A DNA stretch of 64,000 nt from NCBI GenBank assembly GCA_028532855.1, contig JAQQAL010000011.1, positions 310,001 through 374,000 on the forward strand, in the 5' to 3' direction. The notes under the pieces are model-generated. The model saw only the letters and a program-made list of their open reading frames with translations. It was not told the origin of the DNA and searched no databases. The DNA comes from Candidatus Thalassospirochaeta sargassi. GTDB taxonomy: Bacteria > Spirochaetota > Spirochaetia > UBA9216. Shown piece by piece: positions 41,720 to 46,350 of the stretch. A program made the translations under genes and the position numbers. The number at the start of each line of letters is the position of its first letter. The stretch's first letter is position 1.

Positions 41720-41938
41720 TTATCGTTCCCTGTAAATGATACGTCCGCGGGTCAAGTCGTAGGGGGAAAGTGCAACTCTTACTTTATCTCCCGGTACAAT
41801 TCTGATATAGTGTTTGCGCATTTTCCCTGAAAGGTGCGCAAGAATAACATGCCCATTCTGAAGCTCTACCCTGAACATGGTGTTAGGCAGAGATTCTTTA
41901 ACAATTCCTTCTACTTCAATAGCTTCTTCTTTAGCCAC
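41720..41938 (-). CDS. infA: Translation initiation factor IF-1
   Basis: 72 residues when begun at the GTG at 41938, which has GGAGG four bases upstream. This is exactly the family length, and the residues ([12 protein letters not shown]...[20 protein letters not shown]) match IF-1. A longer frame starting at 42013 adds unsupported residues. IF-1 is an OB-fold protein that binds the ribosomal A site during initiation. Confidence 0.97.
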
Positions 41939-42055
41939 ATTGCCTCCAAAATAATTTAAAAGAATACTAAGTGAATAAGAATCCTTTGTCAACCAGTTGA
42001 CTTTTTTGCGCATTTCATAGATATTTCGGCGTAAATAGTTTAAAACGAGGGTAGT

Positions 42056-42412
42056 ATGGATAAAGCATTTGTTGAGCAGATGAGATTAGATCTTATTGCG
42101 CAGAAAGAAGAGATTATGAAGAGTCTCATGTCAGAAAGTGACGATTTCAACGCAATTGTTACTGCAAAACAGCCCAAAGATCTGGCGGATATCGCATCAG
42201 ATGATATTGACAGAAATACACTAGAAACCCTCAGTGCAAATGATGTCAGAAGACTGCGCTTGATTGATTCAGCATTATCCCGAATTGAAAATGAGCGCTA
42301 TGGGCTGTGTATGAGATGTAATAAGAAGATACCGAAAGAACGGCTTGAGGCAATCCCTTATGCGTTGATGTGTATCGACTGCAAATCCACGGACGAACGA
42401 AAAAACAGATAA
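42056..42412 (+). CDS. DksA/TraR-family zinc-finger protein
   Basis: 118 residues. A coiled N-terminal half with a [13 protein letters not shown] acidic turn leads into a C4 zinc finger (CMRCNKKI near 84 and CIDC near 107). The layout is that of DksA-type proteins, which enter the RNA polymerase secondary channel and help the stringent response. It is divergent from infA. A GAGGG ribosome-binding site supports the start. Confidence 0.9.
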
Positions 42413-43964: not shown

Positions 43965-45104
43965 TTAATTAGCCGGTGAACCCGAGCGCTTTCTTGCATG
44001 GTTCACAGTCAGTTTACGGCCCTTGAATTCCTCGCCATCGAGAAGTTCAATTGCTCTTTCCGCGTGTTCTTTTGATATATCCATAAAAGAGTAACTATCG
44101 AGAACCTTTATTGCTCCGATGTCAGCCGGTTCAAGATCGAGCCTGGACTGGAAAAGTCTGGCTAAATCTTTAGGGAAAACCCTGCGGTTTTTTCCGACGC
44201 TGATGAATAGTGTAGTTTTGTTCGGATCAGAATCCCTTTTACGGGGGGTGCGCCTGGGAGCTTTTCCGCCGGTGACGGCCATTTTCAGAAGGTAGGCGCT
44301 TAAATATCCTCTCCTGGAGAAGGGTGTGTGTTTCTTGAAAAGTTTTCGATAAACATTGAGGATATCCGGATCTTCTTCTTCTACAATGTTTTTAATAAAA
44401 TCTTTAATGCTGTTCTCTACTAATGTGAGATCTACTGTCTCGTCATTTTTTTTCATTTCTGAACTCTCCTGTGAATGTTCTTCCTTCATGGTTAAGATAA
44501 CCGGTTTTTTTACCATGGTTTCAATAAGACTGACTGAATTAAGATTGTCAGTGTAAAAAAGGTTTTGACGCCTTTCGGGCATCTTCGAAAAAATAAAAAT
44601 AAGATCCTGGTTGAATCCGTTTTCTTCCAGGTTGGAGGGAGCATCAACAACGGCCGTCTCAATTCTTGATAAATCAATGTTTTCACGGCGGATGTGGTCA
44701 ATAATCCTTGAGGGGGTTCCGATAATGATATCAGGTGTATTGGATAGAGATTTGAGTTCCTGTTTAATCATTGTGTCTGATATCAGTTCGGATACTGTTA
44801 AATTGGAGGAGGATTTTGTAATAAACCGGGAAAATTCCCTTCCGGCCTTTCGGACGTTTTCCGGTTGTGATACGATTACAATGTTTCTGGTGTAATTTTT
44901 ACGGTTCCCCAGGTTCACGAGAATCGGAACGACATAGGATGTTCGCTTACCCTTTGCACCGTTAACACCGGCGATTATGTCTTTTTTCTGGAAAAAAACA
45001 GGAAAAACCTTATTCTGGAGTGGGGTTGGATTGTTGAATCCGGCATTTTTCATTAGTTTGTGAATTTCATCGTCGATTTGAGTAGTGGTAATCTTCTGAT
45101 GCAT
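43965..45104 (-). CDS. Degenerate DEAD-box protein: one RecA-like domain plus DbpA-type RNA-binding domain
   Basis: 379 residues from ATG 45104. Residues 20-40 hold a good Q-motif (AGFNNPTPLQ), and GTPSR (129-133) keeps motif Ib. Motif I is scrambled (GVNGAKGKRT, 46-55), the DEAD box is VDAPS (153-157), and SAT is replaced by YTDN (184-187). After about 205 there is no second RecA domain; an acidic linker and helices (about 225-275) lead straight to a DbpA-type RNA-binding domain (about 297-370). It should bind RNA without ATP-driven unwinding. The open frame is continuous, so it does not look like a decaying pseudogene. Residues added by a longer frame (to 45221) overlap the divergent gene and are not used. 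Confidence 0.85.
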   Translation of the reverse strand: MHQKITTTQIDDEIHKLMKNAGFNNPTPLQNKVFPVFFQKKDIIAGVNGAKGKRTSYVVPILVNLGNRKNYTRNIVIVSQPENVRKAGREFSRFITKSSSNLTVSELISDTMIKQELKSLSNTPDIIIGTPSRIIDHIRRENIDLSRIETAVVDAPSNLEENGFNQDLIFIFSKMPERRQNLFYTDNLNSVSLIETMVKKPVILTMKEEHSQESSEMKKNDETVDLTLVENSIKDFIKNIVEEEDPDILNVYRKLFKKHTPFSRRGYLSAYLLKMAVTGGKAPRRTPRKRDSDPNKTTLFISVGKNRRVFPKDLARLFQSRLDLEPADIGAIKVLDSYSFMDISKEHAERAIELLDGEEFKGRKLTVNHARKRSGSPAN

Positions 45105-45147
45105 GCCGGCTACAATACTGATATTTTTTACCTTATAAGGATTTATT

Positions 45148-46350
45148 ATGAGAAAAAGAGTAGTTTTATTAATCTCTTTTACCCTGCTGTCTATTTTAAC
45201 TCTATATTCTGAAACTTTCAAGTTCAGTTATGAACCCGATGATCGCTATCGTATTCTGTCGCGGGTTGATGAATATGTGTACATCAACGGTGTATATTCT
45301 CATCGGGCTGATATCATGAACAAGATCACTGTTTATGTTAAATCTGTTGAAGACGGTGCAGGAATGATTGAATCCGGGTTCCAGACTTCAGAACGAACTT
45401 CCGGCAGCAGCGGAGCTTATCAATGGGCTACTGAATATGAATCGGAATTTATTCGTGATGAATACGGTAAGTATCAGATTGAGCCCCAGTATTTCATGCC
45501 TGTCGTCAGGGATGTTCCGGTTTTTCCCGACAGAGATTTAGAGCCGGGCGACACCTGGTCCTGGAAGGGGGAGGAAGTGCATGATTTCCGGAAGAATTTT
45601 GGAATAAGCGATGCATATCATATCCCTATTTACGTGAATTACACTTATCTCGGCAAGGGTGAGTATGAAGGATATGAATTTGATAAAATATCTGTGAAGT
45701 ACAATATTTTTTTCAGGCCGTCGGAAGTTCCTTATGGTGCTGAACTTTATCCTGTTAGAATATCAGGAAGCTCGGATCAGATTATCTACTGGGATTCCAG
45801 TGCCGGTCGTCCGCATATATATGAAGAGAGTTTTGAGTTTGTCTTTGAGTTGTCCACCGGTGACACTGTTGAATACAGGGGTATCTCCGATGCTTACATT
45901 GTAGAAAGCCCTAAAATGGATAAAAAAGCCGTTGCTGAAGATATCCGAAAGATTATTGATGATGAAGGTTTGAATGATACTGATGTTTCAATCAGCGAGG
46001 AAGGTGTCAAAATTACGCTCAGTAATATCCAGTTTTCTCCGAATTCATCAAGGCTGCTGAACTCTGAACTGGAAAAGCTTGATCAAATCAGTGAAATAAT
46101 TTCTGAATATCCGGAACGGGATATTCTTGTAGCAGGGCATACAGCCCTGGCGGGCACAGCCGCTGGACGACAGCAGCTTTCTGAACAGCGGGCAAAGGTT
46201 GTTGCCGATTATCTATTGAAAAAAGGCGGACGTCTGCCTGAGCAGATTATTATGAAGGGAATGGGTGCTGAACAGCCTGTCGCTGACAATTCAACAGAAG
46301 AAGGTATGAGAAAAAATCGCAGGGTTGAAATTATTATATTGGAAAATTAA
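45148..46350 (+). CDS. OmpA-family outer-membrane or periplasmic protein
   Basis: 400 residues with a signal peptide (about 1-20, ending LYSETF). The first 260 residues form a beta-rich domain of unknown type. After a linker comes an OmpA-like peptidoglycan-binding domain (about 285-400) with FSPNSSRLL, VAGHTALAGT, LSEQRAKVVADYLL and NRRVEIIIL. It probably links the envelope to peptidoglycan. AAGGA precedes the start. Two hairpins follow the stop. Confidence 0.92.
   Translation: MRKRVVLLISFTLLSILTLYSETFKFSYEPDDRYRILSRVDEYVYINGVYSHRADIMNKITVYVKSVEDGAGMIESGFQTSERTSGSSGAYQWATEYESEFIRDEYGKYQIEPQYFMPVVRDVPVFPDRDLEPGDTWSWKGEEVHDFRKNFGISDAYHIPIYVNYTYLGKGEYEGYEFDKISVKYNIFFRPSEVPYGAELYPVRISGSSDQIIYWDSSAGRPHIYEESFEFVFELSTGDTVEYRGISDAYIVESPKMDKKAVAEDIRKIIDDEGLNDTDVSISEEGVKITLSNIQFSPNSSRLLNSELEKLDQISEIISEYPERDILVAGHTALAGTAAGRQQLSEQRAKVVADYLLKKGGRLPEQIIMKGMGAEQPVADNSTEEGMRKNRRVEIIILEN

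Follow-up and report, generated by a model that had tools for sequence, protein, structure and literature searches.

A spirochaete DEAD-box family without its catalytic motifs and a predicted RNA-binding protein nested in its gene

Family models label a minus-strand gene of Candidatus Thalassospirochaeta sargassi as a DEAD-box helicase. Our analysis of this gene, within the window (the whole stretch of DNA studied, 64,000 nucleotides) and across its relatives, indicates with good confidence that it belongs to a class-wide family of dead DEAD-box proteins in which the linker and the RNA-binding domain (RBD) have been kept, and that two nested proteins are most likely made from the gene. Judging from sequence, the gene in the spirochaete class appears to encode no ATPase and more than one protein.

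Protein architecture and helicase motifs

The frame runs without interruption for 379 codons, as a preliminary description of the gene had stated, and contains three predicted domains.

43965..45104, minus strand: pseudo-DEAD-box long product, 379 aa (ATG at 45104, stop codon at 43965-43967; open frame, with orthologous frames in four congeners)
44478..45104, minus strand: degenerate RecA1-like domain, aa 1-209 (AlphaFold2 pLDDT mostly >90; Foldseek matches to DEAD-box RecA1; Pfam DEAD, 65.8 bits)
44274..44429, minus strand: three-helix linker domain, aa 226-277 (AlphaFold2 models; family alignment)
43998..44219, minus strand: DbpA-type RBD with an RRM fold, aa 296-369 (Pfam PF03880; Foldseek matches to DbpA and RRMs)

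In Pfam, the DEAD match is confined to aa 27-184, and the PF03880 DbpA domain covers aa 298-368 with 67.5 bits against a cut-off of 25.6. No helicase C-terminal domain was found by Pfam in the 379-aa protein, nor any RecA2 match to a profile of intact helicases, and the NCBIfam DbpA equivalog NF008744 gave 131 bits, well under its cut-off of 524. Both the kept DbpA-type domain and the missing second RecA domain had been read correctly in the preliminary description. The structure prediction that it called for was carried out with AlphaFold2 on an alignment of 35 family proteins (mean pLDDT 87.9, pTM 0.56), and the model comprises a confident RecA1 fold at aa 1-209, a disordered joint at aa 210-221, the linker helices at aa 226-277 and an RRM-type RBD at aa 296-369. 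The closest Foldseek structures were DbpA and single DEAD-box RecA1 domains for the whole model, and the DbpA RBD and ordinary RRMs for the C-terminal part, with DbpA chains as the top matches for both. Elsewhere in the genome, an 88-aa frame (G000:C8:62626-62844, plus strand) matches the RBD profile weakly (E 1.8e-6) and is probably a separate bacterial RRM protein.

The motif columns were read by mapping the protein onto the profile of ten intact helicases, all ten of which carry the canonical motifs.

45015..45044, minus strand: Q motif, kept (AGFNNPTPLQ), by profile mapping
44940..44969, minus strand: motif I, degenerate (GVNGAKGKRT; Gly-Lys kept, Thr to Arg), by profile mapping
44634..44645, minus strand: motif II, DAPS replacing DEAD, by profile mapping
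44544..44555, minus strand: motif III, YTDN replacing SAT, by profile mapping

Motif Ia (SQPENV) is lost, motif Ib (TPSR) is largely kept, and motifs IV-VI have no counterpart when the protein is mapped onto the intact-helicase profile. The earlier calls of the Q motif and of DAPS and TDN hold, but motif I is not wholly lost as had been claimed: it reads VNGAKGKR against AxxGxGKT, a degenerate form in which the Walker Gly-Lys is present and the Thr is gone.

The replacements extend across Spirochaetia. DEAD occurs in 0/54 members with RecA1 in which the motif column aligns and SAT in 0/37 in which its column aligns, and motifs V and VI are recognizable in no member of the Spirochaetia family. 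The Walker Lys is retained in 25/41 family members, with GKT in 15/41. A search for intact orthologues in the same class yielded none; the members of about 500-560 aa appear intact by length, but their motifs are dead. The counts without DEAD and SAT include the members of 465-621 aa, which extend over a RecA2 remnant or the place of one. DEAD is likewise found in none of 25 further named members, and SAT in one of 21 new ones, which carries HEPD instead of DEAD; the related named loci L129 and L131 both combine HEPD with SAT. Two other loci, L071 and L085, show FLDEDE and FIDEEE at motif II with GKT at motif I, and are perhaps nearest to the ancestral active enzyme.

With a fold kept by prediction, catalytic motifs lost and the gene under selection (see below), we regard the window gene as a putative pseudohelicase. 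The class-wide loss of motifs and the internal start described later both go beyond the preliminary description.

Family distribution, synteny and domain loss

Searches of 98 genomes of the class and 149 across the phylum gave 74 class members readable at the locus, including full-length open orthologous frames with 65-81% identity in four congeners. All 80 loci kept from a scan of named genomes were spirochaete; 41 remained after removal of those with at least 85% identity to earlier loci or among themselves, 26 of the 41 with RecA1. Group f20/g22 gave no match in five genomes in the class search and none in 4/4 in the phylum search.

Three genes recur around the locus. The names of the first two are those of the families to which we take them to belong.

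41720..42013, minus strand: presumed infA (IF1), near 20/24 dead full-length (FULLdead), 14/18 RecA1-only and 8/18 RBD-only loci
42056..42412, plus strand: presumed DksA/TraR-type protein, near 22/24 FULLdead, 18/18 RecA1-only and 9/18 RBD-only loci
45148..46350, plus strand: divergent OmpA-domain protein (Pfam OmpA), near 10/24 FULLdead, 15/18 RecA1-only and 9/18 RBD-only loci

The infA, DksA/TraR-type and divergent OmpA genes, together with a membrane protein gene, are common to long, RecA1-only and RBD-only loci, and this synteny shows the family within the class to be orthologous. The loci of the Treponema family (L074, L077, L211 and L212) are without the neighbourhood; only their sequences and their place in the tree tie them to the family. 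The infA-dksA-ompA neighbourhood surrounds 0/8 RBD-only proteins from outside the class; other classes of the phylum have free-standing linker-RBD proteins of about 162-177 aa (L193-L199), in another neighbourhood. In the window, the 43 nt that separate the gene from the divergent OmpA gene (45105-45147) are highly conserved in five congeners and hold no clear Shine-Dalgarno for the long product.

A tree of the linker and RBD (92 rows, 166 columns, built without L003, L078 and L082) is short, with many deep branches unresolved. It places the class members under one branch with support of 99/95, which also holds the long-branched out-of-class L200. The architectures on this tree need 11 changes for dead full-length, 11 for RecA1-only and 6 for RBD-only proteins, and at least three of each are forced by well-supported branches, showing on this phylogeny repeated loss of RecA2 followed by RecA1, with RBD-only proteins of 150-300 aa as the end point. 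Other classes of the phylum do have intact helicases that carry this linker and RBD (L201 and L203-L210; L202 was left out of the intact set because its contig cuts the gene), so the ancestor of the family was very likely an active enzyme. Together these proteins form a natural series from enzyme to binding protein: intact outgroup, dead two-domain form, dead one-domain form and RBD alone.

The same genome also encodes an intact 579-aa DEAD-box helicase, L003 (G000:C35), with all canonical motifs and its own PF03880 domain, raising the possibility that the dead copy is a dominant-negative or decoy that competes with this paralogue for the same RNA and so tunes the active helicase. The pairing recurs in G136 and G167, two of the L193-L199 genomes, each of which holds an intact helicase with an RBD as well as an RBD-only protein. 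However, on the family profile the L003 RBD reaches only 15 bits, compared with about 200 for the window gene, so the targets of the two proteins probably differ, and we consider competition between them unlikely, if worth keeping in mind.

Selection and the internal start

In comparisons of five congeners, the whole gene has a pN/pS of 0.18-0.32 and the RBD one of 0.09-0.20, showing at the codon level that the window gene is under purifying selection; within RecA1 it is 0.23-0.40, with no frameshift. The comparison of orthologues proposed in the preliminary description therefore found open congener frames under purifying selection, none of them an intact helicase, with neither the relaxed selection nor the frameshift that would mark a decaying copy. 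Its view of a pseudo-helicase turned RNA-binding protein is supported by this conservation, the dead motifs and the selection on the gene.

The features of the second start are as follows.

44466..44470, minus strand: internal Shine-Dalgarno AGGAG (codons CAG GAG), conserved; codon-usage test
44454..44456, minus strand: internal in-frame start ATG, codon 217, conserved, within the disordered joint aa 210-221 of the AlphaFold2 model
43965..44456, minus strand: predicted short product, linker and RBD, 163 aa, with the extent of free-standing orthologues at the same locus
44454..44744, minus strand: synonymous-site conservation block, codons 121-217, identical-codon ratio 1.81, ending at the internal start

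The site reads CAG GAG AGT TCA GAA ATG and lies where synonymous constraint drops. We scored an internal start as an ATG or GTG at the beginning of the linker after a Shine-Dalgarno match of at least 5 bases, a criterion defined on the first set before its use on new members. It was present in 28/33 members with RecA2 remnants and 19/24 RecA1-only members (47/57), and in 1/9 intact helicases. The corresponding frequencies were 2.3%, 0.4% and 1.9% in other windows of the same genes, and 23.5%, 16.4% and 1.5% after synonymous codons were shuffled. Among the new members, the internal start was found in 24/26 against 1.5% in the control; by this criterion the signal is absent from 10/57 members of the first set and 2/26 of the new ones.

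Codon choice at the site points the same way. Every Gln-Glu dipeptide there is written CAG GAG (29/29), where 8.3 would be expected from each gene's own usage, and the new members repeat the pattern in 10/11 cases with 5.1 expected; the exception, L153, is a member without a start by the criterion. With sites taken as independent, multiplying the codon frequencies of the genes themselves gives 1.8e-18 for the 29 sites and 2.1e-13 for the 21 left after close relatives were dropped. These data show, at the level of codon usage, selection on the internal Shine-Dalgarno. Several RBD-only genes have (AC)AGGAG ahead of their own start, for example ACAGGAG in L049, L052 and L054. The primary start is mostly GTG in the family and follows a Shine-Dalgarno match of at least 5 bases in only 3 of 44 members (13 near-duplicates dropped), none of them in the window's genus; for comparison, 20/52 long frames of the window carry such a match.

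Shine-Dalgarno-like codons can pause ribosomes without initiating translation. The gene might, in line with the preliminary description, have a single product, the long pseudo-helicase, acting alone as an RNA-binding or RNA-chaperone factor, with the internal AGGAG as an accident of amino acids and codons or a pause site. The protein-level constraint on RecA1, the intact frame and the confident fold do indicate that the long product matters. An accident or a pause site fits poorly, however, with a codon choice that departs from the genes' own usage, with a start codon at a workable spacing after the AGGAG, with free-standing proteins of the same extent at the same locus and with the replication in new members, and we judge a single product improbable. 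The evidence instead suggests that a second, shorter RBD protein starts inside the pseudo-helicase gene.

The codons upstream of the internal start are themselves unusually conserved. Synonymous divergence is saturated in the RBD and neighbouring genes (pS mostly 0.70-0.80) and low in parts of RecA1, with lowest 60-codon values of 0.21, 0.29, 0.43 and 0.41 against the four congeners; only infA and the DksA-type gene, both short and highly conserved, approach these values. The ratio of observed to expected codon identity reaches 1.81 over codons 121-217, against 1.32 over codons 1-120 and 1.15 over codons 218-379. The value of the block was reached by 0/5000 column permutations, with the block boundary picked after the data were seen and five species of one genus compared, and the best single 30-codon window is merely marginal (p 0.043). 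Codon comparison thus shows, for the window's genus, a synonymous constraint that ends at the internal start. Class-wide, a scan of 44 of the 57 members (13 near-duplicates dropped) found the excess mainly at two starts, the primary and the internal. A second short block at 44970-45029 (codons 26-45), rich in T and A runs, also has near-identical codons among the congeners, with a ratio of up to 1.78.

Other sources of this conservation were considered. A structured RNA was set aside: RNAalifold folded the block into small hairpins with 64 predicted pairs, 2 of them with a compensatory change (covariation term +0.84), which is almost no covariation. Recombination was judged unlikely as the source of low RecA1 pS because the low stretches are interspersed. 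We do not claim a class-wide cis element at the repeated ATT GTC GGC in RecA1, since window ratios there are modest (about 1.2-1.3, with single columns such as codon 128 up to 1.75) and the scan has its peaks at the primary and internal starts. Codons could also be preserved by an overlapping gene or RNA on the antisense strand instead of by a leader for the short form, and an open frame on the plus strand at 44569-44892 has counterparts in 3/4 congeners. That frame spans codons 71-179, whereas constraint is lower at codons 71-120 (mostly 1.0-1.6) than at 121-217; promoter-like sites were not in excess of shuffles, and Rfam returned nothing above its curated scores. The misfit between frame and block led us to reject the antisense gene as the cause, an explanation that we hold to be very improbable. 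Finally, the absence of catalytic motifs and RecA2 could suggest a recently decayed helicase pseudogene, which is ruled out for practical purposes by class-wide conservation, open frames, synteny and pN/pS.

RNA binding, the proposed two-product gene and known systems

The guanine-reading I-G-x-I loop is common to YxiN and Hera, and a base contact of YxiN is made by K427, as described in PMC3695512. The family keeps the loop (I in 61/75, G in 63/75 and I in 65/75 rows). At the K427 position the window gene has Ser, and Lys is found in 7/75 family rows; the G423 position of YxiN is Arg or Lys in 39/75. A near-invariant Tyr-Ser-Phe (Tyr in 74/75) stands where YxiN has Ala-Ser-Tyr. Of the hairpin 92 contacts in the RBD, the I436/G437/I439 loop is thus kept and K427 is not. 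The earlier proposal that the protein targets 23S rRNA as DbpA does is therefore not established. That infA and a DksA-type gene lie nearby gives, at best, a hint of a role in translation.

The family has an apparent RBD-only orthologue in Treponema pallidum, TPANIC_1029/TP1029, with a linker and RBD in a 234-aa frame in G079, presumably a genome of this species. It is called a putative helicase in a passage of PMC7864442. TPANIC_1029 is listed in Table 3 of PMC8525777 among the genes with the highest transcript levels in rabbit infection and culture, and TP1029 appears in the proteome abundance table of PMC5015957, indicating that the RBD-only form is made. The family membership proposed here would supply an ancestry for this abundant, unexplained gene.

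We propose that the family lost ATPase and unwinding chemistry while keeping the helical linker and the DbpA-type RBD. A long form, RecA1-linker-RBD, would be made from a start with a weak Shine-Dalgarno or none, whereas initiation at the ATG in the flexible joint, behind the internal Shine-Dalgarno, would give a 163-aa linker-RBD form. This short form would equal the free-standing linker-RBD proteins found at the same locus in other spirochaetes. It is presumably translated and may be the main, core product, with the long form as an added pseudo-helicase version. Both forms would bind ribosomal or messenger RNA; what is left of RecA1 may serve as a non-cycling accessory surface, and the constrained coding stretch may act in cis as a leader for the short form. 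More tentatively, the dead RecA1 half could be at once a protein domain and, over about 290 nt of synonymously conserved coding sequence, a cis-acting RNA leader that governs the internal start and to which the RBD product possibly binds, autoregulating the ratio of long to short form; the helicase half would then have been lost repeatedly, leaving the nested gene alone in Treponema and other lineages. We offer this extension as a speculative possibility. The arrangement suggests that an internal start may pre-adapt a gene to domain loss.

Nested in-frame starts that give a long product and a C-terminal short product through an internal Shine-Dalgarno are known from infB and cas10d/cas11d. In the open-licence literature, we found no case of a nested internal start in a bacterial DEAD-box gene, and no paper that describes this family as dead or nested under the topics of bacterial pseudohelicases, DbpA in spirochaetes and DEAD-box internal starts. 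DbpA and YxiN, DEAD-box helicases specific for hairpin 92 of 23S rRNA, share RecA1, the C-terminal PF03880 RBD and the I-G-x-I guanine loop with the window gene. Unlike them, the window gene has no RecA2, no DEAD or SAT and no K427-type contact, and it has an extra helical linker domain and an internal start. Hera of Thermus, with its helicase core, dimerization domain and RBD, resembles the window gene in the order of core, helical domain and RBD and in the guanine-reading loop, but is described in PMC3695512 as an active helicase that has an RBD sub-domain of its own and an Arg-rich tail. Utp25 of the yeast SSU processome, presented in PMC9539457 as a DEAD-box-like pseudohelicase in ribosome assembly, offers a likeness; it is eukaryotic, whereas the window gene has an RRM-type RBD and a predicted nested short product. 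The free-standing DbpA-RBD proteins of Treponema (TPANIC_1029/TP1029) have the linker and RBD of that predicted short product and no helicase remnant.
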